Source: Spirochaetaceae bacterium (GTDB lineage Bacteria; Spirochaetota; Spirochaetia; Treponematales; Treponemataceae). From it: a stretch of 37,176 nt of DNA. The stretch spans positions 1 to 37,176 of the forward strand of contig JAGAAX010000042.1 of assembly GCA_017614995.1 (NCBI GenBank), given 5' to 3'. Shown here in pieces: positions 1,546-37,176 of this stretch. Numbering within the stretch: the first letter of the stretch is position 1; each line of letters opens with the position of its first letter. The translations under genes and the position numbers were made by a program. The notes beneath the pieces are model-generated. The model ran no database searches, was not told the origin of the DNA, and saw only the letters and a program-made list of their open reading frames with translations.

Positions 1546-3336
1546 ATGTCAAAGATTTTAGACTGCAACAATGTTGCTTATCCTGAATTTACAAAAGGCA
1601 GAGTAATTTCATGCAAGGCTGAAAAAGGCGCAAGACCAGAGAACAGCGTTTTCGCGCTTGTTCTTGCAGTTAAAGGCGATAAAAAGCCGCTGCCCGGTCA
1701 GTTCTACATGCTTCATGCACTTAAAAGCGATGTTCTGCTCGGCCGCCCTATCAGCGTTTTCCATTCGGAACAGAAAAAAGACTGTGTTGAAATTACGTTC
1801 TTAATCTTGCAGAAAGGCAAAGGAACGCAAGAGCTTTGCCAGCTTGAAAAAGACGATGAAATAAGCATTTTAGGCCCGCTCGGCAATGTTTTTCCAAAAC
1901 CAGAAAGCGGCAAAGCCCTTGTTATTGGCGGCGGAATCGGTGTTGCGCCTGTGGCAGGTTTTGCAGAATCGCTTAAAGACAAGTCTTACGACTTTTACGC
2001 TTGTTTTAAGAGCGGCAAATACGCACTTGAGAACATAAAGCCTGAAAAGCTTGTAATTACCACAGACGACGGCAGTTTCGGCATAAAGGGAATGCTGCCG
2101 TCTGCTCTTACGGCTGAAACCATAAAAGCCGGAAATTATTCCGCTGTTTATGCGTGCGGCCCGACTCCGATGCTTTGCTACGTTAAAAAAGTCGCAGAAG
2201 AAGCCGGAGTTTTGTGCTATTTAAGCATGGAAGCACGCATGGCTTGCGGCATGGGCGTCTGCCTCGGCTGCACAATCGACACAACAGAGGGCAACAAACG
2301 CTGCTGCAAGGACGGGCCTGTTTTTGACAGCCGCATCATCAAATTTCCGCAATTCAAAGATTCATTCTCGTCAAAAGCCCTGCCCTGCAAAGCACCGCTT
2401 AACGAAGAACCCGATATTTCAGTCTCTATCAAAGGCGTACGCCTTAGCAACCCGCTAATCGGCAGTTCGGGCACTTTCGGCTTCGGTACAGAATATACAT
2501 CTGTTTTTGATGTAAACCGACTCGGCGCAATTGCGTCAAAAGGTCTTACGCTTGAACCGCGTGAAGGCAACAGCGGAATAAGACTTTGGGAAACACCGTC
2601 TGGGCTTATGAACTCAATCGGGCTTCAGAATCCGGGCATTCCGCATTTTATTGAGCATGAACTGTCTGAAATGCTCGCGCTCAAACCTGTTACAATCGCG
2701 AATCTTTCAGGCTCTACGCTTGAAAGCTACGTTGAGGGCGCAAAACTTCTCGACAAGACAGAAGTTCCTATAATTGAGCTGAACATTTCATGCCCGAATG
2801 TTGCGGCAGGCGGCGCTTCTTTCGGAATGACTTGCGCGCTTGCAAATCAGGCTGTTTCGGCAGTTAGAGCCGTAACCGCAAAGCCTTTGATTGTCAAGCT
2901 TACACCGCAGTCGCCTGATTTGATAAATGTCGCGCTTGAGTGCATAAAATCTGGCGCGGACGGCATAAGTCTCTGCAATTCTTTTCAAGGCGTTGCAATA
3001 GACATTGAGCGCGGCGTGCCGGTCTTTGACAAGATAAAGGCTGGTTTCGGCGGCCCTGCCGTGCGCCCGATTGCGATGCGCCTTATCTATGAGCTTTGTA
3101 CAGAAATCAAGAAACTTCCGGCTGACCGGCAGGTTCCAGTTATTGCAATTGGCGGAATCGAAAAATGGCAGGACGTTGTGGAATTTATAATGTGCGGTGC
3201 ATCCGCTGTTGAAGTGGGCACAAACACATTCGCCAATCCGTTCACGATGATTGAATGTATCGACGGACTTTCGGCATTTATGAAGCGCAAGGGTTACAAG
3301 AACCTTGAAGAAATGCGCGGCATCGTGCTGAACTAG
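1546..3336 (+). CDS. pyrKD: Dihydroorotate dehydrogenase, PyrK-PyrD fusion
   Basis: Oxidises dihydroorotate to orotate in pyrimidine synthesis and passes electrons to NAD+. Residues 1-280 form the electron-transfer subunit PyrK: an FAD motif RPIS at 67-70, a nucleotide-binding GGGIGVAP at 128-135, and a 2Fe-2S cysteine cluster at C234, C239, C242 and C253/C254. Residues 288-596 form the class 1B catalytic subunit PyrD, with the FMN-barrel signature SSGTFGFG near 307-314 and active-site cysteine C416 in NISCPN. In most bacteria these are two genes (pyrK, pyrD or pyrDB) forming a heterotetramer. Here one uninterrupted frame of 596 aa carries both. The start has an AGGAGCGG ribosome site. It follows icd closely and ends before a bidirectional terminator. 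Confidence 0.95.
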   Translation: MSKILDCNNVAYPEFTKGRVISCKAEKGARPENSVFALVLAVKGDKKPLPGQFYMLHALKSDVLLGRPISVFHSEQKKDCVEITFLILQKGKGTQELCQLEKDDEISILGPLGNVFPKPESGKALVIGGGIGVAPVAGFAESLKDKSYDFYACFKSGKYALENIKPEKLVITTDDGSFGIKGMLPSALTAETIKAGNYSAVYACGPTPMLCYVKKVAEEAGVLCYLSMEARMACGMGVCLGCTIDTTEGNKRCCKDGPVFDSRIIKFPQFKDSFSSKALPCKAPLNEEPDISVSIKGVRLSNPLIGSSGTFGFGTEYTSVFDVNRLGAIASKGLTLEPREGNSGIRLWETPSGLMNSIGLQNPGIPHFIEHELSEMLALKPVTIANLSGSTLESYVEGAKLLDKTEVPIIELNISCPNVAAGGASFGMTCALANQAVSAVRAVTAKPLIVKLTPQSPDLINVALECIKSGADGISLCNSFQGVAIDIERGVPVFDKIKAGFGGPAVRPIAMRLIYELCTEIKKLPADRQVPVIAIGGIEKWQDVVEFIMCGASAVEVGTNTFANPFTMIECIDGLSAFMKRKGYKNLEEMRGIVLN

Positions 3337-26949: not shown

Positions 26950-27864
26950 TTATTCTTCTGCAAAAAAGTCTGTGTCTATTTTGCAAATCTTTATTATATC
27001 TTTTACAGTTACTCCAGCTTCATATTCTATCATTAAATCAGTTAGTTTTTGACCATCGATTAATATTACAGTGGCATTACTTGTATTATTTGCATAATTT
27101 ATTGCTTCTTGTGAAAACGAAGCAGTTGTAATAAAAATGCCTTTTTTTGCTCTTTGACCGTCTAATGCTCCAACAAATTTCTGTATTTCTGGACGACCAA
27201 TTTTTGTTTCTTTTTTCCATCGTTTAGCTTGAACATAAATTTTATCCAAACCAAGCTTATCTTCTTTTATAATTCCATCGATTCCTTCGTCTCCAGATTT
27301 TGAAGTTACTTCACCATTATTGAAATCTGAATCTCCATAGCCCATTTTTATTAATAGCTCAACAACGATTTCTTCAAATTTGTAAGGAGAAGCATTTTCA
27401 ATATTTTGAAGAAGAATTTTTGATAATTCTTGATTAATACGTTTATGACCTTCTTCAATTAATTCATCAGGAGTTTTTTCTTCATCATATTCAATTTGTT
27501 CGTCTTCAGTTTTTTCTTTTTTATCTCTTTCAAATAAATTTTTATCAGGATTTAATTCTTTTAAAAATCGAATTGTAATTTTATCAGGAGGATTATTTAA
27601 TACATTCTTTCCTAATTCAGAAATTTGATATTTTCCACGTTCAGGACTTCCTATTAAACCACCAGTTCTTAAATAAGAAATAGACCAAGCAATTCTATTG
27701 TAATATAGAAGTTGTTTTCCATTTGGAGTTTTTACCTGTTTTTCTTCTTCTGTAATTTTGAAATGTTCAACTACAATATTTCTTATCATCGTGGAATCAT
27801 AAATTTTTTCATCTTTCATATTTGAAAGGATTGGAAGCATCGCAGATTGAAAATCAGGTATCAT
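26950..27864 (-). CDS. mrr: Mrr-type type IV restriction endonuclease
   Basis: Cuts DNA carrying foreign methylation, as E. coli Mrr does. The 304-aa length equals that of E. coli Mrr. Residues 1-95 form the Mrr_N winged-helix domain (LLYYNRIAWSISYLRTGGLI). After an acidic linker (110-145) comes the catalytic domain from residue 160: FEEIVVELLIKMGY, GDEGIDGI (D192, D196) and VQAKRW (Q212-x-K214), the PD-(D/E)XK variant of the family. Located beyond the last attC, with the standard cassette leader hairpin upstream (27898-27913), it appears to be the distal member of the array but lacks an attC of its own. It could restrict incoming DNA with alien methylation; compatibility with the methylases upstream is implied. 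Confidence 0.92.
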   Translation of the reverse strand: MIPDFQSAMLPILSNMKDEKIYDSTMIRNIVVEHFKITEEEKQVKTPNGKQLLYYNRIAWSISYLRTGGLIGSPERGKYQISELGKNVLNNPPDKITIRFLKELNPDKNLFERDKKEKTEDEQIEYDEEKTPDELIEEGHKRINQELSKILLQNIENASPYKFEEIVVELLIKMGYGDSDFNNGEVTSKSGDEGIDGIIKEDKLGLDKIYVQAKRWKKETKIGRPEIQKFVGALDGQRAKKGIFITTASFSQEAINYANNTSNATVILIDGQKLTDLMIEYEAGVTVKDIIKICKIDTDFFAEE

Positions 27865-27916: not shown

Positions 27917-27979
27917 GTATAACAACTGGTTGTACCGCAGGCGGCTTGACCGCCTGTCGGCTACGAACCTATGTTATAC
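27917..27979 (-). other. attC site 1 with leader hairpin
   Basis: Core ends GTATAAC (27917-27923) and GTTATAC (27973-27979). L-box arms GGTTGTACCG and CGGCTACGAACC, the latter with two extra bases; central stem GCAGGCGG/CCGCCTGT around CTTGA. It closes the cassette of the gene at 28263-29015. The hairpin of the next cassette start (mrr side) is at 27898-27913, CGCCC/GGGCG with loop GCACTG on the minus strand. Confidence 0.85.
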
Positions 27980-27980
27980 G

Positions 27981-28262: not shown

Positions 28263-29015
28263 CTATTCTCCATGAATTATTGATTCTATTTTTGAAGTAT
28301 CTGCATTTATTAGAATTTCAAAAACTCCTCCTAAAGCTTCATCTGGTAGAGTACCTTTAACGAACCATTTATTCTTATACTTATAAATATAATAAGGCAT
28401 TTCATCTCTTATTGTTTTAATTCCATATAAATCGAATAAAATATTTTCTGATACTTTTATTACTTCCTCGATTTTTAATAGTTTTTTTTCCTCAGGTTGA
28501 ATTCCGGTATATTCAGGTTGTATTTTTGATAATTCTTCATCTAAATCAATTTCATATAAATCTTTAACTATCGAATCAGTTCCAGAAGGATCACATATCA
28601 AATTAAAAGAATTAATGTCAAAATCAAAAACTCTTGATCTTTTAGTAATACATTTTACTTCGTAAGTATTTATGTTGAATTCAAAGATATCATTTGCTCG
28701 ATTAATAATTGTAATCGTTTTACTGTTTTTGAATTCTATATTTTTGATAAATACCCATTGAACATCTCCTTCAAGATATTCGTTTATTCGTATCACATAT
28801 ATAGGAACGGTAAAATAGTATTTTGGTTCTGTATTTGATTCGATTTTAATTATTCCAAAAAAATAATTTCCTAAATCTGTTGTTTTGTATGAAACATTGT
28901 ATGTAAATTTTTCGTTGGAGATAGAATCAGGACTCGGAGGGATATTTATATAAGCCGAAAGATTATATAGACAACCGAAAAATACAATTAATAAAATTAA
29001 AAACTTCTTTTTCAT
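28263..29015 (-). CDS. Exported protein of unknown function, cassette family member 1
   Basis: 250 aa with a signal peptide (KKKFLILLIVFFGCLYNLSA). The mature part looks beta-rich, with VQWVFIKNIEFKNSKTITI, and ends GGVFEILINADTSKIESIIHGE minus the first residues of that run. The same blocks, including WVFI-DIEFK and the IHGE end, recur in 36172-36927, so the two are paralogues carried in separate cassettes. I do not recognise the family. GGAG precedes the ATG. Periplasmic or surface location is inferred from the signal peptide. Confidence 0.75.
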   Translation of the reverse strand: MKKKFLILLIVFFGCLYNLSAYINIPPSPDSISNEKFTYNVSYKTTDLGNYFFGIIKIESNTEPKYYFTVPIYVIRINEYLEGDVQWVFIKNIEFKNSKTITIINRANDIFEFNINTYEVKCITKRSRVFDFDINSFNLICDPSGTDSIVKDLYEIDLDEELSKIQPEYTGIQPEEKKLLKIEEVIKVSENILFDLYGIKTIRDEMPYYIYKYKNKWFVKGTLPDEALGGVFEILINADTSKIESIIHGE

Positions 29016-29044: not shown

Positions 29045-29109
29045 GTATAACTACGCGCTTAAACGGTGGCGGGCTTGACCCGACATCCGATTTGAAGTGC
29101 ATGTTATGC
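29045..29109 (-). other. attC site 2 with leader hairpin
   Basis: Core ends GTATAAC (29045-29051) and GTTATGC (29103-29109); L boxes GCGCTTAAACGG and CCGATTTGAAGTGC; central GGCGGG-CTTGA-CCCGAC. It lies 5 bases after the methylase stop and closes the DpnII-like cassette. The next cassette starts with hairpin CACCTC-AGT-GAGGTG (29027-29041), directly before the SD of the exported-protein gene. Confidence 0.85.
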
Positions 29110-29114
29110 CTTAT

Positions 29115-29999
29115 TTATTCTATCGGTAAATCTATGCCATAATATGGAGTTTCTTCATGAACTTCCATTATTTCTTTCAAAGGTTTATCCGAATATTTCA
29201 TTATTTTATCACGATATTCCATTTTTTTCATAACGTTGTTAATTTCTATTCTGCGATTTTTTGAAAGTTGTAAAAATTCTTCTTCCTTATCTAAACCTAA
29301 AAATCTACGATTTAATAAATTTGCTGCAATTCCTGTTGTGCTGGAGCCCGTAAAGGGATCCAGTACCCAATCATTTTCTTTTGTTGAAGCAAGGATTATT
29401 CGAGCAAGTAAAGGTAAAGGTTTCTGTGTAGGATGTTTACCGCAAGACTTTTCCCATTTTGCAATAGCAGGCAAGCTCCATAAATCGCGCATTTGCGTTC
29501 CGCCGTTAATTTCCTTCATTAATTCATAATTGTAATAGTGTGTTATTTTTTTATTTTTACGAGCCCAAAGAATAAACTCTGTAGAATGAGTAAAAAATTT
29601 ACAGGACAAATTTGGAGGAGGATTTGTTTTTGCCCATGTGATGCAATTCAAGATTCTAAAGTTTAATTCAGTAAGCATTTGGGCAACAGAGAAAATGTTA
29701 TGATATGTACCAGAAATCCAAATAGTTCCATTTTCTTTTAGTTTATCACGACAAAGACTAAGCCATTGTCGATTAAATTCATTATCTTTTGCAAACCCCT
29801 GAGATTTATCCCATGTTCCTTTATTTACAGAAACTTGTCTTCCACTTTGAACGGAAATACCTCCATTAGACAAAAAGTATGGAGGATCAGCAAAAATCAT
29901 ATCAAATTGAAAATTTATATTAGGAAGTAAGTCTAAGCAATTACCTTTTGCAAGAGTGAAGTCTTTATTTTCTGAACGATACCACGCTTTGATAGAAAT
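29115..29999 (-). CDS. DpnA-type adenine methyltransferase, ATT start
   Basis: Beta-class N6-adenine methyltransferase of the DpnII system; DpnA methylates GATC also on single strands, which helps protect incoming DNA. Motif IV DPPYF comes first, SAM motif FTGSSTTG near the end, with NLSCKFFTHSTEFILWARKN and GKHPTQKP between, as in DpnA. The first ATG (29900) would delete the N-terminal FTLAKGNCLDLLPN segment expected before DPPY. The frame extends to an ATT at 29999 behind AGGAG, giving 294 aa. This stop-SD-start junction matches the one at 33828-33845 at 17 of 18 bases, the exception being ATG there and ATT here. Translation may thus be weak. Confidence 0.85.
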   Translation of the reverse strand: MSIKAWYRSENKDFTLAKGNCLDLLPNINFQFDMIFADPPYFLSNGGISVQSGRQVSVNKGTWDKSQGFAKDNEFNRQWLSLCRDKLKENGTIWISGTYHNIFSVAQMLTELNFRILNCITWAKTNPPPNLSCKFFTHSTEFILWARKNKKITHYYNYELMKEINGGTQMRDLWSLPAIAKWEKSCGKHPTQKPLPLLARIILASTKENDWVLDPFTGSSTTGIAANLLNRRFLGLDKEEEFLQLSKNRRIEINNVMKKMEYRDKIMKYSDKPLKEIMEVHEETPYYGIDLPIE

Positions 30000-30008
30000 A
30001 ATAAACTC

Positions 30009-30872
30009 CTATTTAAATATAGTTTTCATTATTCCATTCTGCATATCATTTATACTATATAAATCTTCTAATACATCAAATGTTTCTTCAAGATTTCTTG
30101 CAGCAGATTTCCATCCGGCACCATCAGTAAACCACACAAACTTTGCGCCTTTTACATTTTTCATTTCTGTTGCAATTGTTTTGTAGCTTCTTGCAGTTTC
30201 ATTTAATTTTGAACCACCACTACCATAAAAGTTTGTTTCAATTAAATAAATGCAATTATCAGTTCTTACAACAAAGTCCCAGCGTTTTTCCATTTTACCC
30301 TGATTTGAAACCGCTGATAAATCGATGTTCCATTTTTTAGAAACTTCAGAAATATACATTTCTTTAAAATAATTTACATCACGTTTGAACCCGGCTTTTT
30401 TTATATAGTTTTCTACAAGGTCTTCCATCTGATGACCGCCACGATTTTTTCTACCATTTGAATCAAGGCCTGTTTCTACACCAGTTACGTAGTCATATAA
30501 ATTATTTATAATGTGATTTGATAGAAGATCAAAAAGACCTGTTTTTTTCATGAACAATTTATATTCTGAAATAGTATTAATCTGTTTATCAAAAGTGAAA
30601 AGTTTCACATCTCCATTTTCGCCTGCAAATATTTCATACTCTCTGACAGCAAGCAAAATAGGAATGCATTTTAGTATCTCTGGATATTTCGAAACTAATT
30701 TTTCAAAATCGGCTTCAATATTTTTTGAACCAATTAATGAATTCAAAATGTTTAATTCTACTTTTATAGAATCAGTATTTTTGTAAACTTTATTAAAATC
30801 AATATAATAACCAAAGTCTGCAATACTATATCGAAATTTTGAAAGCCACATTTGAAAATTTCGTTTTTCCAT
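30009..30872 (-). CDS. DpnII-like type II restriction endonuclease (GATC)
   Basis: 287 aa, close to DpnII in length and motifs: TGVETGLDSNGRKNRGGHQM, then KRWDFVV and IYLIETNFYGSGGSKLNETA, the PD-(D/E)XK-like core of this family. It should cut unmethylated GATC. GAGG lies five bases before the ATG. It follows the Dam-type methylase by 8 bases and overlaps the leader of the second methylase, so order is methylase, endonuclease, methylase. In the pneumococcal system both methylases precede the nuclease. Confidence 0.92.
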   Translation of the reverse strand: MEKRNFQMWLSKFRYSIADFGYYIDFNKVYKNTDSIKVELNILNSLIGSKNIEADFEKLVSKYPEILKCIPILLAVREYEIFAGENGDVKLFTFDKQINTISEYKLFMKKTGLFDLLSNHIINNLYDYVTGVETGLDSNGRKNRGGHQMEDLVENYIKKAGFKRDVNYFKEMYISEVSKKWNIDLSAVSNQGKMEKRWDFVVRTDNCIYLIETNFYGSGGSKLNETARSYKTIATEMKNVKGAKFVWFTDGAGWKSAARNLEETFDVLEDLYSINDMQNGIMKTIFK

Positions 30873-30880
30873 AAAGACCT

Positions 30881-31771
30881 CTAAAATACACTTGCAGTGT
30901 TTGAAATCAGCAATTCGTTTATTGCACCACGTTTGTTTGCATTTGAATTAATCATTCGAGAAGCTGAAACTCTTTCTATTTGAAAATGAGAGTACAATTC
31001 ATCAAAGAAGTTATCATTAGTATTTGTATTCTTCGGATCAGAATTGCTTGCCAAAACAAGAGCACCTTTGTTTGAAATTTCTGTAATGAAATTTCCAAGT
31101 TCAATCTGTTCTTTATCTGTGAAGCCATTTTCTGAATATGAAGTAAAGGCCGCTGTTTGTGCAAGAGGTCGGTAGGGTGGGTCAATATAGACAAAAGTTT
31201 TATCATCGATAAAACTTTTGCATTCCTTATAATCACCAACTTTCATTTCAACATTTTTAAGTAGTTCTGAACAGGCTTTTAAATTTTCTTCATCACATAA
31301 AAGAGGATTTTTAGCATTATTGAACGGAACATTAAATAAGCCTTTAGAATTAACACGATACAAACCATTAAAACAGGTTTTATTTAAGAAAATGAATAAT
31401 ACTGCTTTTTCAAGATTTTCTTGTTCATTCCCGTTTACTTTTAATTCATTATATCGGTTTCGTTTTTCGTAAAAAAATTCTTTATTTTGTTCAAGTGAAT
31501 GTGATTTATATATTTCCTGTATTTCTGAAAGTTGTGAAATCATTGCTTCACAATTGTTTTTTATTTGGGAGTATGTATTTATAAGTTCTTTATTTATATC
31601 GTTGATTAAAACTTCTTTTGGTTGAAATTTACTTAATACATCAAAAAGTACAGCTCCGCCGCCAACAAAAGGCTCGCAATACTTTTCAATTTTTGAGGGG
31701 TACTTTTCTCTAATTTCATCAAGTAATTGGCTTTTCCCACCAACCCATTTTATAAACGGCTTCGCCAACAT
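30881..31771 (-). CDS. Dam/DpnM-type adenine methylase (GATC)
   Basis: D12-class (alpha) N6-adenine methyltransferase, 296 aa. Motifs: KWVGGKSQL at 8-16, SAM motif EPFVGGGAV at 33-41, and catalytic DPPY at 197-200 followed by RPLAQTAAFTSY. It should methylate GATC and protect the host from the adjacent nuclease. First gene of its cassette. A -10 box TATAAT ends only 9 bases before the ATG and no ribosome site is visible, so the message may be leaderless. Confidence 0.93.
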   Translation of the reverse strand: MLAKPFIKWVGGKSQLLDEIREKYPSKIEKYCEPFVGGGAVLFDVLSKFQPKEVLINDINKELINTYSQIKNNCEAMISQLSEIQEIYKSHSLEQNKEFFYEKRNRYNELKVNGNEQENLEKAVLFIFLNKTCFNGLYRVNSKGLFNVPFNNAKNPLLCDEENLKACSELLKNVEMKVGDYKECKSFIDDKTFVYIDPPYRPLAQTAAFTSYSENGFTDKEQIELGNFITEISNKGALVLASNSDPKNTNTNDNFFDELYSHFQIERVSASRMINSNANKRGAINELLISNTASVF

Positions 31772-31780
31772 AACAAATTA

Positions 31781-31786
31781 ATTATA
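31781..31786 (-). promoter_or_regulatory. -10 box of the DpnII-like cassette
   Basis: TATAAT on the minus strand, 9 bases before the methylase ATG; a matching -35 is weak. It suggests the cassette carries its own promoter and does not depend on Pc of the integron. Confidence 0.45.
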
Positions 31787-31844
31787 CTACTTTTTAACGA
31801 ATTTTTCTATATTATTTTTTAATGAGCAGCCCAGTGGGCTGTCG

Positions 31845-31911
31845 GCATAACTACGCAGTTAAACCGCAAACCGGCTTGACCGGTTTGTCGGATTTGAACT
31901 GCATGTTATGC
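31845..31911 (-). other. attC site 3 with leader hairpin
   Basis: Core ends GCATAAC (31845-31851) and GTTATGC (31905-31911). L boxes GCAGTTAAACCG and CGGATTTGAACTGC; extra A and G in the right arm. Central GCAAACCGG-CTTGA-CCGGTTTGT. It closes the EcoRI-like cassette. The next cassette starts with hairpin CAGCCC-AGT-GGGCTG at 31827-31841. Confidence 0.88.
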
Positions 31912-31916
31912 CTTTG

Positions 31917-32132
31917 TTAGAGAATTGTATTAATACAATGATTATATGAAGGAGGTAAAAAGTTTATATCATCAAATTTACTGAGAGTTATAGGTCCTCT
32001 TGGTTTAGTATAACCCTGTTCAATTAATTTTTTATACTCTTCTTGAGTTACAAGATAATCTTTATAAAACGTCAAATTCTGGTTTTCATTGTTAGTTACA
32101 ATTTTTACAACCTGATCTACTAATGTTTTCAT
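31917..32132 (-). CDS. 71-aa protein of unknown function
   Basis: Overlaps the stop of the protease-like gene by 4 bases (ATGA), so the two are translationally coupled, and ends 5 bases before attC 3. The sequence (VTQEEYKKLIEQGYTKPRGP) has no signal peptide or recognised motif. It may be a partner, adaptor or substrate of the protease; that is context only. Confidence 0.6.
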   Translation of the reverse strand: MKTLVDQVVKIVTNNENQNLTFYKDYLVTQEEYKKLIEQGYTKPRGPITLSKFDDINFLPPSYNHCINTIL

Positions 32133-32995
32133 ATAAAATCCCTTGTTTGTATAAAAATATTTATCCTATTATGATTGATAAAATCAGTAGCTAAAGAATG
32201 ATATTTACGAATTAAAGCTGTTAGTTTTTTATCGTCTCCAAAGTTCTGAATTTTCAATTGTAACTCGTTTTCTAGTGTTTCAATATTTATTGGTCTACCA
32301 TGTGATTTCCAAATATTATTGTTACTTAACTTATCGGCAATATCTTTTGCTCTTTTAATTTTTTCTTGTTCAGTTACTTTCCTAGAAGGATCATGTGAAT
32401 GTGTTGTCCAATCTCTGAATTTATATTTTACTAGCCATTTTTGAAGCAAATCAATAGTCAACTCTTTTGCTTGCTCAAAACCTCGCAATTCGGCCAAATC
32501 CATTTCTTTTAAGATAATAAACTCTGCCTGAGTTAATTCATTATTTTGGGCTTTTTGGATTAACTCATTAACCTTATCTAAATAACCTAAAGCAGGAACA
32601 AATCTTCCTTCTTTGTTTTGTACTTGAGGATCAATAGGACCTAATACACTATAATAATCCATAAGAATATTATTTCCACTCATACAGAAAATAGTACCTG
32701 CACTATATGCTCTGTCAGGAACAATAAAATTTACTTCTGAATAATGTTTTCTTATTATGTTGACATGTCTTTCAACTGAAATAGCACTACCACCATTTGT
32801 GGTTAATATTATATACAGGGAGTCTTTTTTTTGAGAATCGTTTACTAATTGCTCTATTATTTGTAAAAATTGGTTTTCAGTACCATCCATTATTGGCCCA
32901 TAAAAAGCCAGGACATCTGAGTTTAAATAACTCTCTAATTCTACTAATCTTTGTTTTAATAATATTTTTATATTATCATTTATTGGAAATTCCAT
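32129..32995 (-). CDS. ClpP-fold serine protease, SDH/SppA-like
   Basis: 288 aa of the SDH (serine dehydrogenase proteinase-like) ClpP/crotonase superfamily. TTNGGSA (65-71) forms the oxyanion region, YSAGTIF (97-103) carries the nucleophile S98, and MDYYSVLGPIDPQV (112-125) is the family signature; the C-terminal half is helical. No signal or membrane helix is seen, so it is likely cytosolic. Similar proteases occur beside restriction and other defence genes. Here it sits directly downstream of an EcoRI-like R-M pair in the same cassette, coupled to a 71-aa gene. An AGGG lies 7 bases before the ATG. Confidence 0.8.
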   Translation of the reverse strand: MEFPINDNIKILLKQRLVELESYLNSDVLAFYGPIMDGTENQFLQIIEQLVNDSQKKDSLYIILTTNGGSAISVERHVNIIRKHYSEVNFIVPDRAYSAGTIFCMSGNNILMDYYSVLGPIDPQVQNKEGRFVPALGYLDKVNELIQKAQNNELTQAEFIILKEMDLAELRGFEQAKELTIDLLQKWLVKYKFRDWTTHSHDPSRKVTEQEKIKRAKDIADKLSNNNIWKSHGRPINIETLENELQLKIQNFGDDKKLTALIRKYHSLATDFINHNRINIFIQTRDFI

Positions 32996-33104
32996 CCTAA
33001 AACCCTAGATATAATTGTATTATTAAATATTAAAAAAATCAATTTCTTTTTTAAAAGAACACTATTTATCTGTTTAGCTAATAGAAATTTTTAGAATTTC
33101 AAAG
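32996..33104. other. Short gap inside the EcoRI-like cassette
   Basis: AT-rich with no attC, so the restriction pair and the protease pair belong to one cassette. It may hold a promoter for the protease gene; no convincing -35/-10 pair was found. Confidence 0.4.
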
Positions 33105-33830
33105 CTAATACAGATAGTATCTTATAGATGCTTCTGCGATTTCTTTCATTTTCTCAAACATTTCAGGAATTGTCCACCGTTCTTCTCTAAAGAACATTGA
33201 TACTGGAGAAAAGTAATTTACATCAGAATTTCCATCTCTTTTAAAAACGTAAATTTGATTTAAATTATAAAACTCATTCATGACAATTATTTTTGAACGA
33301 ACTGTCAAAGTTTCTGGGGTATCTACAGCAAAATCACAGCCCCAGCCAAAGCAGATGAATGGAGTAATTTTTTCATAGTTCATCATTGCTTTTATTCCTG
33401 TAAGATTTTTTCCAAGTCTTTCAATAGCGTTTCCTGTTGCTTGTTTTGCTTTACCTTCTTGTAGACGTTCTTTATTTGTTCCTTGACGTTTTATTTCTGC
33501 AATGACTAATGGAGATTTTTCATTTTTCTTTTTATTTACAAGATATAATACTCCGCCATCTGGAATGATTTTTCTATCTATACAGTCATAGCAAAATTCT
33601 GAGCGGATTCTTTTTCGTTTAATAAAATCAATCATGTATTTGATTTCAATTTCTGCGGAGAATTCCAAGTCCCAATCATTTTCAAAATATGATTGGAAAT
33701 CTTTTTTACTTTTCAAATACTGTTTTACAAGTTCCATTGCCTGATAAACTTCTTTATCATCAATTTTTGATTTTGAGTTTTTAGGCTTATGCTGTTCTGT
33801 TCTTTCTCGTAAACTGTCGTGCTGGCTCAT
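33105..33830 (-). CDS. EcoRI-like type II restriction endonuclease
   Basis: 241 aa, a little shorter than EcoRI (277). The catalytic set aligns: PDGG with D91, then IAEIKRQG with E112 and K114 (EcoRI has D91, E111, K113 in PDGG and AEAKHQG). Next comes the recognition-helix block ATGNAIERLGKN, matching AAGNAIERSHKN of EcoRI, and FICFGWGCDF. The N-terminus LRERTEQHKP also resembles EcoRI. It probably recognises GAATTC or a close relative. ATG is preceded by AGGAG overlapping the methylase stop. Confidence 0.88.
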   Translation of the reverse strand: MSQHDSLRERTEQHKPKNSKSKIDDKEVYQAMELVKQYLKSKKDFQSYFENDWDLEFSAEIEIKYMIDFIKRKRIRSEFCYDCIDRKIIPDGGVLYLVNKKKNEKSPLVIAEIKRQGTNKERLQEGKAKQATGNAIERLGKNLTGIKAMMNYEKITPFICFGWGCDFAVDTPETLTVRSKIIVMNEFYNLNQIYVFKRDGNSDVNYFSPVSMFFREERWTIPEMFEKMKEIAEASIRYYLY

Positions 33831-33839
33831 AATAAACTC

Positions 33840-34946
33840 CTATTTTTCTAAGACGAAAAGATACTCTGAAACATGAATATCTCTACTTCTTAAATTTCTG
33901 CTTCCACGGAAAGTATTGTATGTAATTTCTACAGTTTTTACTTTTCCGTATTTTTTTAGCATTTCTGACATTTCATCAAATGTAATGAAACCTTCCGAGT
34001 TATATGAAATAATTGCGAACTTGCTCGACAAGTTTGCAATTATTTCTTCCATTGATTTCAATGCAGAATAAGGTTTGTTAAAAGCTGAACGATTCCAATC
34101 TTGTGTTATTCCGCTGACTTTACTTACTTCAACATCCAATTTATTTTTTATGATTAAATTGAGCATAAAATAATTGGAACCATAAGGATGCTGATTATAT
34201 GGAGGATCAAGATAAGCAATATCTAAATTCTTAAGTTCTTTAGAAAGTTCAACAGTGTCTTTTTGATAGATTTCTAATTTTGAATTAAAATTACTGAAAA
34301 TAGGTTCTTTTAATTCTATTTTTCCAAAGATTCTTGTAAGGGCATTTTTACCAGCAGCACCAAAGCAACCGATACCAGTGTTTTTATCTTTATAAAAACC
34401 TTTAAATACTCCACTTGTATTTACATGGATTGATGCTTCTGTAACCAATGGAGCCAGAAAGAACTTTTTTAATTCTTCTTCCTTTACCACATCATCAATT
34501 AATTTTCTATATGTATCGATTAGTACGGCATTTTCGTGCGTGTAGAAAACTCTTTCGCCTCTTAAAATATTATTGTCGTCTTGAGGTGCATAATTTTCTG
34601 AAATTATTCCAGGATATTTTTGCTTGGCGCAACGCTTTTCAATTTCGTTGCGTAATTCTGCACAAACTTCTGCCGGATAATCTTTTTTATTTATTAAATA
34701 GCAGATGTTGATTAATGATGAATAATTTTCAAGATCATTAACAATTAATTTTGAAGAATGCTTTTTTAGCATTCGTGCAACAATTCCAGAACCAGAAAAA
34801 ACATCTGCACATACAAGTTTTTTCTTTCCAAGTTTATTTTCTATTTCTTCAACTTCTTTTTCTATATTTCCTATTAGACTTCGTTTATTTCCAAGGTAGG
34901 TAATTATTTGAGTTGTAAGAAAATCCTTATTTTCTTCTTTTTCCAT
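33840..34946 (-). CDS. D12-class adenine methyltransferase of the EcoRI-like system
   Basis: 368 aa. Opens with YLGNKRSLI, SAM motif ADVFSGSGIVARML (47-60), catalytic DPPYNQHPYGSNYFML (247 on), and a C-terminal RSRDIHVSEYLFVLEK. This is a D12-type methylase, whereas M.EcoRI belongs to a different subtype, so the pair is a mixed combination. It should protect the endonuclease site. ATG 34946 was chosen; an in-frame TTG at 34955 is also possible. No controller-protein gene is seen. Confidence 0.85.
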   Translation of the reverse strand: MEKEENKDFLTTQIITYLGNKRSLIGNIEKEVEEIENKLGKKKLVCADVFSGSGIVARMLKKHSSKLIVNDLENYSSLINICYLINKKDYPAEVCAELRNEIEKRCAKQKYPGIISENYAPQDDNNILRGERVFYTHENAVLIDTYRKLIDDVVKEEELKKFFLAPLVTEASIHVNTSGVFKGFYKDKNTGIGCFGAAGKNALTRIFGKIELKEPIFSNFNSKLEIYQKDTVELSKELKNLDIAYLDPPYNQHPYGSNYFMLNLIIKNKLDVEVSKVSGITQDWNRSAFNKPYSALKSMEEIIANLSSKFAIISYNSEGFITFDEMSEMLKKYGKVKTVEITYNTFRGSRNLRSRDIHVSEYLFVLEK

Positions 34947-35042
34947 TTCGTCCAATATCCATTTTTTATTTTTTGATACGGAGAAATGCTATGCTTTTAA
35001 ATTTTTAAATACTTAAATTTTTCCGCCCCAGTGGGGCGTGGG

Positions 35043-35103
35043 CATAACAACTGGTTGTACCGCACGCGGCTTGACCGCGTGTCGGCTACGAACCTTTGTT
35101 ATG
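35043..35103 (-). other. attC site 4 with leader hairpin
   Basis: Core ends CATAAC (35043-35048) and GTTATG (35098-35103); L boxes as in site 1; central GCACGCGG-CTTGA-CCGCGTGT. It lies 3 bases after the stop of the gene at 35107. The next cassette starts with hairpin CGCCCC-AGT-GGGGCG at 35024-35038. Confidence 0.87.
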
Positions 35104-35106
35104 TGT

Positions 35107-35826: not shown

Positions 35827-35903
35827 ATTAGGCCTCTAAATGTTATCTCATCTTTCGTTTTCTGCTGTTGATACAAAGGCTTGCGCCCCAGTGCGGGCGT
35901 CCA

Positions 35904-35966
35904 CATAACAATTGCTTAAACCGCAAACCGGCTTGACCGGTTTGTCGGCTTTGAAGCTTTGTTATG
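35904..35966 (-). other. attC site 5 with leader hairpin
   Basis: Core ends CATAAC (35904-35909) and GTTATG (35961-35966); L boxes TTGCTTAAACCG and CGGCTTTGAAGC; central stem as in site 3. The hairpin of the next cassette start is at 35884-35899 (CGCCC/GGGCG type). Confidence 0.85.
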
Positions 35967-36171
35967 GCAAAAATATTTCTTATACAGAATTGGATTTCAA
36001 AAATACTTTTTTCGTTATAAAAATTCTGTATAACCATTTGAAGCGTATGCTTCTATTATTATACTTTTCCTAAGCGGCGTAAAGCCGCGTTTTACCGCTT
36101 CTTCGCGTAAACCCTAAAGTTCAATTTCATTTCATAAAGCAAGCTTGACTTGCTTTATGAAATATTCTTTT
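35967..36171 (-). ncRNA. Structured 3' module of cassette, copy B
   Basis: Four hairpins fill the gap between stop codon and attC 5: 12-bp TTATACAGAATT/AATTCTGTATAA (35980-36033), GAAGCGTATGCTTC (36040-36053), GCGGC/GCCGC (36074-36088), and a perfect 14-bp stem with loop CTTGA (36130-36143/36149-36162). The last directly follows the stop codon in gene direction. No coding frame fits. Confidence 0.5.
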
Positions 36172-36927
36172 TTATTCTCCATGAATCACTGATTCTATTT
36201 GTGAATTATCTGCATTTATAACAATTTCAAAAACGCCGCCTATGCATTCTTTAGTCAGAGAACCAGTCACAATCCATTTATTTTTATATTTTGATATATG
36301 ATACGGCTGTTCGTTTTTTATATTCTCTTCACCATAAATTTGGAATAATATACTTTCTGCAACAAAAACCACATCTTCAATTTTTTTTAATTTCTTCTTT
36401 TCAGGCTGTATTCCAGTATATTTATATTTTTTATTTTTTTGAATAATTGAGAAATTATCTTTCTCAAAAAGCAGATAAATCTGGTCTTTTATTTTTTCTA
36501 ATACCGGCCTTGTTTTAAAGTTTTTAATATCGAATGCAAATAATTGAGTTTCAACATTTACTGGTGTAACTTCATAAGTATCAATATTCATTTCAAAAAC
36601 ATTGTTATCTTCATTTGTAATTATAATTGTATTTTCATCTTTAAATTCAATGTCATTTATAAAAACCCATTGAACATCAGTTTCCAAGTCTTCATCAAGA
36701 CTTATTGAATATATAGGAACTTTATAGAAATATTTTGGTGAATTTATAGATTCAACTGTGATTACTCCTATCCAATTATTATAATCATTTGAATATACTG
36801 CCCCTGCACTATATTTAAAATTTTTATTTGATATAGGTTCCACCACTTTTGGATCTTCTCTTTCTGCAAAGACATTATTAATTAATACAACAAAAATTAA
36901 AAAGAAAATATAAATTTTTTTCTTCAT
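36172..36927 (-). CDS. Exported protein of unknown function, cassette family member 2
   Basis: 251 aa with signal peptide (KKKIYIFFLIFVVLINNVFA). It shares with 28263-29015 the VQWVFINDIEFKDENTIII block, TGIQPEKKKLKKIEDV, the SKYKNKWIVTGSL stretch and the C-terminal IHGE end, so the two are diverged paralogues of similar length. Function unknown. AGGATG lies before the ATG, immediately after the leader hairpin. Confidence 0.75.
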   Translation of the reverse strand: MKKKIYIFFLIFVVLINNVFAEREDPKVVEPISNKNFKYSAGAVYSNDYNNWIGVITVESINSPKYFYKVPIYSISLDEDLETDVQWVFINDIEFKDENTIIITNEDNNVFEMNIDTYEVTPVNVETQLFAFDIKNFKTRPVLEKIKDQIYLLFEKDNFSIIQKNKKYKYTGIQPEKKKLKKIEDVVFVAESILFQIYGEENIKNEQPYHISKYKNKWIVTGSLTKECIGGVFEIVINADNSQIESVIHGE

Positions 36928-36960: not shown

Positions 36961-37025
36961 GTCATAACAATTGGTTGTACCGCAGGCAGCTTGACTGCCT
37001 GTCGGCTACGAACCTTTGTTATGAC
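36961..37025 (-). other. attC site 6 with leader hairpin
   Basis: Core ends GTCATAAC (36961-36968) and GTTATGAC (37018-37025); L boxes as in sites 1 and 4; central GCAGGCAG-CTTGA-CTGCCTGT. The hairpin of the next cassette start is CAGGCC-AGT-GGCCTG at 36944-36958. Confidence 0.87.
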
Positions 37026-37176
37026 AAGTTATATTTCTTATACAGAATTAGATTTCATAATTACTTTTTTCTTTATGAAAATTCTGTGCAATCGATTGAA
37101 GCGTATGCTTCTATTATTATACTTTTCCTAAGCGGCGTAAAGCCGCGTATTAACGCTCCTTCGTCCTCGCCTTAAA
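37026..37176 (-). ncRNA. Structured 3' module of cassette, copy C (cut by window edge)
   Basis: Closely resembles copy B over 150 bases: TTATACAGAATT/AATTCTGTGCAA (37038-37091), GAAGCGTATGCTTC (37098-37111) and GCGGC/GCCGC (37132-37146). The CTTGA stem expected further right is outside the window, as is the gene it would follow. Confidence 0.5.

Follow-up and report, generated by a model that had tools for sequence, protein, structure and literature searches.

In the genome of a gut Spirochaetaceae bacterium (3.05 Mb, 64 contigs, 95% complete), a 2,800-bp unit is, judged from its sequence, an integron gene cassette containing a complete DpnII-type restriction-modification (R-M) operon in the order Dam, endonuclease, DpnA. 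The unit lies on contig C19, whose 37,176 bases make up the stretch of DNA analysed here (hereafter the window), and the relatives of the window by gene are rumen and gut Treponema. Translation of the second methylase, encoded by dpnA, appears to begin at AUU, a very rare start codon shared with relatives, and the space between the two conserved methylases looks like a slot where nucleases were exchanged. Taken together, we hold it to be quite probable that this is a mobile DpnII-type cassette in which DpnA is started from AUU at a low level, coupled to the nuclease, and in which the nuclease slot is exchangeable. R-M cassettes are a known kind of integron cassette; the start pattern of dpnA and the slot are what is new.

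A DpnII-type operon packaged as one integron cassette

A scan of the window with Rfam at the gathering threshold gave zero matches, so the attC sites were modelled in this analysis. Six attC sites align over 68 columns, 31 of them invariant, and fold into a single hairpin with unpaired bases. Their scores of 69-91 bits come from a covariance model trained on those same six and hold by construction; independent support for the model is given by compensatory changes in 13 of the 26 predicted pairs. Chance was discarded as an explanation for the attC sites given this covariation, and the gene family matches are far beyond chance. As further independent support, the model recovered nine more sites in the same genome (contigs C10, C28, C52 and C54) and two in Treponema sp. 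MB2.76. The integron integrase gene (intI, 421 amino acids) is located on contig C28, another contig than the window's, where an attI-like site comes next after intI, followed by cassettes in the same orientation as the integrase; this integrase has the C-terminal insert typical of integron integrases. As expected of integron cassettes, the array has attC core sites with R''/R', a folded attC strand and an integrase in the genome.

Read in the direction of the genes, every attC comes after the gene to which it belongs; the DpnII-type cassette therefore owns attC 2 and begins at the core of attC 3. With the core cut placed at G^TT, a position that we assume, the circle comprises 29051-31850, and the following features were assigned:

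29051-31850, minus strand, DpnII-type cassette, 2,800 bp from core cut to core cut (cores GTATAAC at 29045-29051 and GCATAAC at 31845-31851; attC model; ends conserved in relatives)
29045-29110, minus strand, attC 2, the cassette's own attC (69.4 bits, E 7.3e-17), 4 nucleotides (nt) past the dpnA stop codon (a coordinate difference of 5)
31845-31912, minus strand, attC 3, which belongs to the preceding cassette and whose R' forms the 5' boundary of the DpnII cassette (73.9 bits, E 3.9e-18; covarying fold)
30881-31771, minus strand, Dam-type N6-adenine methyltransferase, 296 amino acids (PF02086 3.7e-65; TIGR00571 dam 299.6 bits, cut-off 114.85; closest structure DpnM, 2dpm, 2.4e-60)
30009-30872, minus strand, DpnII-family restriction endonuclease, 287 amino acids (PF04556 6.2e-105, 277 of 278 positions; AUG start with GAGGT as Shine-Dalgarno sequence)
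29115-29999, minus strand, DpnA-type beta-class methyltransferase, 294 amino acids (PF01555 1.1e-58; 58% identity to the second methylase of pSRQ700)

All three reading frames are intact, and the gaps between them (8 nt and 9 nt) are too small for a 64-nt attC, which excludes such a site between the genes. These results bear out what a preliminary description of this DNA had proposed, namely that a complete DpnII-like system (PF02086/TIGR00571, PF04556 and PF01555 genes) is packaged between attC 2 and attC 3 as one cassette with no attC inside; the coordinates given there, 29045-31844, denote the same unit shifted within the core. The check for a degenerate attC that it had called for was run with the attC model and filters off, and a cryptic internal site was dropped, the best match inside the cassette reaching 9.4 bits (E 7.9). 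Two features had been missed there, namely that dpnA begins with a codon other than AUG and that the nuclease slot is exchangeable. Such a cassette is not unusual on its own: the neighbouring cassette holds an EcoRI-like methylase and endonuclease plus two open reading frames (ORFs), and R-M cassettes are reported in passages of PMC9892861. Dam and DpnA are predicted to methylate GATC and the endonuclease to cut unmethylated GATC. DpnA shares 58% and 55% identity with the second methylases of two plasmid DpnII-type systems, and its best structure match is CcrM; homology alone leaves its target unproven.

Start codon of dpnA

The ORF listed for dpnA (29115-29900) begins at an internal ATG, whereas sequence conservation extends a further 33 codons towards the N-terminus, to an ATT (29999-29997) at which the protein begins. 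This first ATG of the listed ORF is codon 33 and falls within the DMIFADPPY motif. Upstream of it, the window encodes the conserved stretch YRSENKDFTLAKGNCLDLLPNINFQFD without any ATG, GTG or TTG, directly preceded by TAGGAGTTTATT-ATT. Gene callers limited to ATG, GTG and TTG cut off the first 33 residues of DpnA, as happened in this ORF list. Two features were assigned here:

29997-29999, minus strand, inferred dpnA start codon ATT (no ATG, GTG or TTG between codon 33 and the in-frame stop that lies 4 codons upstream of ATT; aligns with the ATG of other relatives)
30006-30010, minus strand, dpnA Shine-Dalgarno sequence AGGAG, overlapping the endonuclease stop codon (from the sequence)

The comparison of dpnA starts covered 78 places; among these, 50 coding sequences and 46 starts were distinct. 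These comprise 21 ATT, 2 ATC and 1 ATA (24 non-AUG starts), 20 ATG and 2 unclear cases. All 24 non-AUG starts have a Shine-Dalgarno match of 4 nt or longer, compared with only 2 of the 20 that are ATG (Fisher p 1.8e-10, a test that ignores relatedness). When the 44 dpnA with a clear start were placed on a tree, built with the start codon left out, it required 11 changes of start type, at least 6 of them on well-supported branches; start type and Shine-Dalgarno sequence shift together in 6 of 6 independent well-supported pairs in most pairings, and never in opposite directions (p 0.03). Codons 1-32 of dpnA are under purifying selection, with a ratio of nonsynonymous to synonymous changes (pN/pS) of 0.20, compared with 0.89 for the 10 codons upstream. 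Moreover, ATT accounts for 21 of the 24 non-AUG starts as against 57% of the other isoleucine codons of the same genes (p 0.0015, relatedness ignored). The nuclease genes of related loci served as a control, and their 36 distinct starts comprise 35 ATG and 1 GTG, with a Shine-Dalgarno match of at least 4 nt in 30 of 36.

The ATT start is also carried by the strain genomes of Treponema ruminis RU1 and T. zioleckii kT3 (L006, L007), so it is not an artefact of metagenome assembly. A conserved start other than ATG, GTG or TTG together with a Shine-Dalgarno sequence, the combination known from infC, was found in 24 of the 46 distinct starts, the window included. Our literature search on AUU or noncanonical start codons in connection with R-M returned bacteriocin genes only.

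A nuclease slot between two conserved methylases

Slot contents were compared among loci in which Dam and DpnA are both at least 85% identical to those of the window, some Dam identities being taken from partial sequences. The window and L018 contain one DpnII-family nuclease. The same nuclease is joined by a weak Mrr-like ORF in L005, by a second DpnII-family nuclease in L006 (PF04556 1e-68) and by a PDDEXK_11 ORF in L009, and a 69%-identical nuclease with a further ORF without a family occupies L020. The slot nuclease is 28% identical in L104 and about 36% identical in L130, L131 and L140, and the about-36% type is accompanied by an 80-residue ORF (L134) or an AIPR protein (L197). In L142 the slot holds only a 187-residue ORF resembling the PDDEXK_11 ORF of L165.

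As a separate observation, T. ruminis RU1 possesses two different DpnII-family endonucleases in tandem between both methylases (L006:6864-7826).

Recurrence and mobility of the unit

With DpnA as the query, matches at E 1e-60 or better were found in 60 of the 274 genomes of the family. An attC lies at most 350 nt downstream in at least 9 of the 46 distinct dpnA starts (window, L032, L130, L131, L134, L138, L139, L140 and L142). The succession Dam-nuclease-DpnA-attC, or DpnA-attC at cut contigs, recurs with differing flanks in nine other loci (L032 and L193-L200). Expressed as coordinate difference, attC follows the dpnA stop by 5-6 nt in the window, L032 and L195-L200 (7 of the 9 other loci), and by 331-342 nt in L193 and L194, which are the same places as L130 and L131. 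From the core GTTATG(C/A) on, the 5' end is alike among the loci, with a hairpin, TAGAAA-TTTCGTTAAA, TATAAT and dam. Upstream of this core, an attC is present in the window, L195, L197 and L032, and L194 has an attI-like sequence that nearly matches this genome's attI from GGCGGATAC to GTTATG; a weaker attI-like sequence was observed in L193, neither attC nor attI-like sequence in L198, and in L199 a core upstream of the unit was not found. In addition, the EcoRI-like methylase/endonuclease cassette stands after the DpnII cassette in L195 and L196 (93.5% and 75% identical to that of the window) and before it in the window.

The DpnII-type cassette behaves as one mobile unit, located at different places in the window, L032 and L193-L200 as is expected of a cassette. 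This agrees with the earlier claim that it moves as one unit, since the same unit is found beside different cassettes in other Treponema, and in one version at an attI-like relic. It thereby provides a clear instance of a multi-gene R-M operon that would move as one integron cassette, with a nuclease slot between conserved methylases. An integrase like that of this genome was detected in 4 of 10 genomes tested (G000, G440, G558 and G565), with an internal stop codon in G558 and G565, and was not found in the other 6, which are 76-94% complete.

The DpnII-type cassette of L194 (G471:C47, about 3140-3250) lies at its attI-like sequence near an ORF that we name ilvB-like by resemblance; an integrase like this genome's was not found in that genome, which is 89% complete. 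The initial 80 loci were picked by similarity to the window nuclease, from which the nuclease of most integron copies differs strongly (about 36% identity). With one attC-associated locus (L032) among those 80, DpnII cassettes had at first looked rare in integrons; this proved wrong, as the DpnA query found further integron copies. In the phage collection a full-length DpnA relative was not found, the single record being covered to 41%; one viral contig, L159, is among the DpnA relatives. The DpnII nuclease matched 14 plasmid records, the best being a Fusobacterium record of 2.1 Mb labelled as a plasmid.

Promoter, leaderless starts and translational coupling

One promoter-like feature precedes the operon:

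31781-31809, minus strand, promoter-like TAGAAA-17-TATAAT (scan), with TATAAT ending 9 nt before the Dam ATG (near-leaderless)

Among distinct Dam starts, compared for ATG starts only, a TATAAT-like hexamer (5 or 6 of 6 positions) was observed 6-9 nt before the ATG in 12 of 16 (shuffled 33%), and Treponema dam looks near-leaderless. In relatives of the Gastranaerophilales type, an exact TATAAT stands exactly 6 nt before the dpnA ATG in 8 of 9 distinct starts, so that the transcript would start at the A of this ATG. A leaderless start was also considered for the AUG-type dpnA of Treponema and rejected as weak, with a TATAAT-like hexamer in 7 of 19, mostly 9-11 nt away; coupling to the upstream ORF appears to fit better. 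Of the 20 ATG dpnA, 16 have an upstream ORF of at least 100 codons that ends within 11 nt on either side of the start; in 3 others it ends at a greater distance, and for the remaining one such an ORF was not found. In 23 of the 24 non-AUG dpnA, the end of the upstream ORF precedes the start by 1-15 nt.

In the mechanism we propose, the unit would be transcribed from its own promoter directly before dam and would for this reason work wherever it lands. The nuclease would be translated from AUG with a Shine-Dalgarno sequence and both methylases from weak, non-standard starts, dam being near-leaderless and dpnA beginning with AUU, its Shine-Dalgarno sequence directly behind the stop codon of the nuclease. 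This would probably result in a low output of DpnA that is tied to translation of the nuclease, and the AUU start may itself hold DpnA at a low level. R-M systems hinge on the ratio of protector to cutter, and the conserved AUU with its co-changing Shine-Dalgarno sequence suggests that this ratio is set in translation.

Control of dpnA by initiation factor 3 (IF3) would be a further, unproven step. According to passages of PMC2268962, raised IF3 inhibits non-canonical starts, leaderless mRNAs and re-initiation without a Shine-Dalgarno sequence in Escherichia coli. If both methylases were gated by IF3, the IF3-to-ribosome ratio would set the methylase-to-nuclease balance whatever nuclease occupies the slot. 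The starts observed here match these classes: Treponema dpnA fits the first (AUU with a Shine-Dalgarno sequence) or, in most AUG cases, the third (AUG lacking this sequence at or near the upstream stop), Gastranaerophilales-type dpnA fits the leaderless class, Treponema dam also looks leaderless, and the nuclease keeps AUG with a Shine-Dalgarno sequence. We put IF3 gating forward as a tentative and rather unlikely extension. Were it true, the unit would be a portable, self-balancing frame for nucleases, movable by integrons.

Alternative explanations

The ATT codon might be no start at all, with dpnA being expressed by read-through of the nuclease stop codon as a nuclease-DpnA fusion, or being a decaying gene. 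The TAG that ends the nuclease gene is indeed in frame with dpnA in the window and L018, with no intervening stop, so that read-through is possible there. In most relatives, however, dpnA is preceded by a different ORF that often uses another frame; besides, purifying selection acts on the 32 codons past ATT but not on those upstream of it, the dpnA frame is open across 24 distinct non-AUG starts, and ATT aligns with the ATG of close relatives, all of which makes this explanation improbable. Initiation at AUU under a translational balance, which we prefer, has several further observations weighing against it in addition to the in-frame stop. The Fisher p value given above ignores relatedness, and the tree-aware test gives p 0.03 only. 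L151 and L156 belong to neither class of dpnA starts, a standard start lies 16 codons upstream of the ATA in L016, some of the non-AUG dpnA have GTG, TTG or ATG at codons 11-24, and infC of this genome (L185, G000:C22) apparently starts with TTG after AGGAGG rather than with AUU. The promoter scan yielded 10 promoter-like sites in 2,951 bases, no excess over the 13.0 expected in shuffles, and thus proves nothing by itself. Furthermore, passages of PMC3573125 argue that DpnA is unable to shield double-stranded phage DNA, which weakens the argument that sharp restriction depends on low levels of DpnA.

Alternatively, the R-M operon might be a static part of the chromosome that happens to have an attC on either side and does not move. 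The close sister operon L018, with the same three genes and an attC not found, speaks for such an arrangement and against a mobile cassette, and it is compatible with more than one order of capture; the recurrence of the unit with its attC in nine other loci with different flanks, mostly at the same distance from the dpnA stop, renders immobility very improbable. Within the mobile cassette that we favour, the operon could also serve as an addiction module, and the preliminary description had suggested that it holds the array in place because cells losing it would be killed by residual nuclease. Type II systems can kill upon loss, which counts in favour of this role, as does the finding that the genome has three PF02086 matches, the other two of only about 1e-20, so that there is no obvious second Dam. 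Toxin-antitoxin cassettes limit array deletions in Vibrio according to passages of PMC3856429, which lists Szekeres 2007, making such an effect plausible. Nevertheless, the array around the cassette does rearrange between genomes, as the opposite order of the DpnII and EcoRI-like cassettes in L195 and L196 reveals, and the genome has three further PF01555 matches with targets not assigned. Stabilization of the array is thus a possible but doubtful function.

Neighbouring cassettes and the end of the array

The remaining attC sites and the neighbouring cassette are as follows:

27917-27980, minus strand, attC 1 (covariance model)
35042-35105, minus strand, attC 4 (covariance model)
35903-35968, minus strand, attC 5 (covariance model)
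36962-37025, minus strand, attC 6 (covariance model)
31851-35047, minus strand, neighbouring cassette with four ORFs (PF02086, PF02963, PF01972; attC 3 and attC 4; two-gene version in L195/L196)
33840-34955, minus strand, D12 methylase of the neighbouring cassette
33105-33830, minus strand, EcoRI-like endonuclease of the neighbouring cassette
32129-32995, minus strand, SDH-type protease-like ORF of the neighbouring cassette
31917-32132, minus strand, small ORF of the neighbouring cassette

In L195 (6336-8382) an attC lies 59 nt past the EcoRI-like endonuclease, where the window has two more ORFs with no attC between; 31851-35047 is likely a cassette fusion by loss of an attC. An Mrr-type (type IV) restriction gene is located at 26950-27864, beyond the last attC, so that the array ends in three consecutive restriction units. 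Two similar cassette proteins occur in one array (28263-29015 and 36172-36927), one of which was matched to Imm-NTF2-2, and a 133-nt repeat of 90% identity is found twice near attC 5 and attC 6 (35973-36105 and 37031-37163). A short hairpin (like CAGCCCACTGGGCTG) follows the attC core at the 5' end of the examined cassettes, for example at 31824-31844; it may belong to the Treponema site or have a function in the mRNA. Similar cassettes that we call HigBA-like toxin-antitoxin cassettes, by resemblance, were detected on contig C54 of this genome (L188:8094-8681) and in L032 (73-570), the latter immediately preceding the DpnII cassette in Treponema sp. MB2.76.

Comparison with known systems

The DpnII system of Streptococcus pneumoniae and the DpnII-type system of the Lactococcus plasmid pSRQ700, which we take to be LlaDCHI, likewise comprise a Dam-type methylase, a DpnII-family nuclease and a beta-class second methylase. 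In pneumococcus, constitutive production of DpnA is only weak according to passages of PMC3573125. S. pneumoniae dpnM is reportedly leaderless, and dpnA is said to have an atypical ribosome site. Dam, nuclease and DpnA of the cassette are 37%, 34% and 58% identical to their pSRQ700 counterparts. In pSRQ700 and a Staphylococcus lugdunensis plasmid the genes are arranged as M-A-R (Dam-type methylase, second methylase, nuclease), whereas the window cassette has M-R-A; the window system is filed as a variant, since it departs from this usual, non-essential order. It further differs from the DpnII and pSRQ700 systems in that dpnA starts with AUU and in being carried as an integron cassette.

With infC (ATT), and with sigR (GTC), which passages of PMC5472188 present among the very few experimentally characterised noncanonical starts, dpnA shares a conserved AUU, AUC or AUA with a Shine-Dalgarno sequence. 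Unlike infC-type starts, which are under IF3 repression, it encodes a DNA methylase of an R-M system, for which such control is our conjecture.

The common orientation of integrase and cassettes on contig C28 matches that described for Treponema chromosomal integrons in passages of PMC3607928; the word 'restriction' is absent from the main text of that article, whereas the window array has an R-M cassette. By title, our literature search on DpnII together with integrons gave nothing on this topic. R-M systems in integron cassettes have already been reported in passages of PMC9892861, citing Buongermino Pereira 2020 and Ghaly 2021, with R-M genes between attC sites as in the window; in comparison with these, the cassette described here has three genes including a second methylase, its own promoter-like site and a variable nuclease slot.

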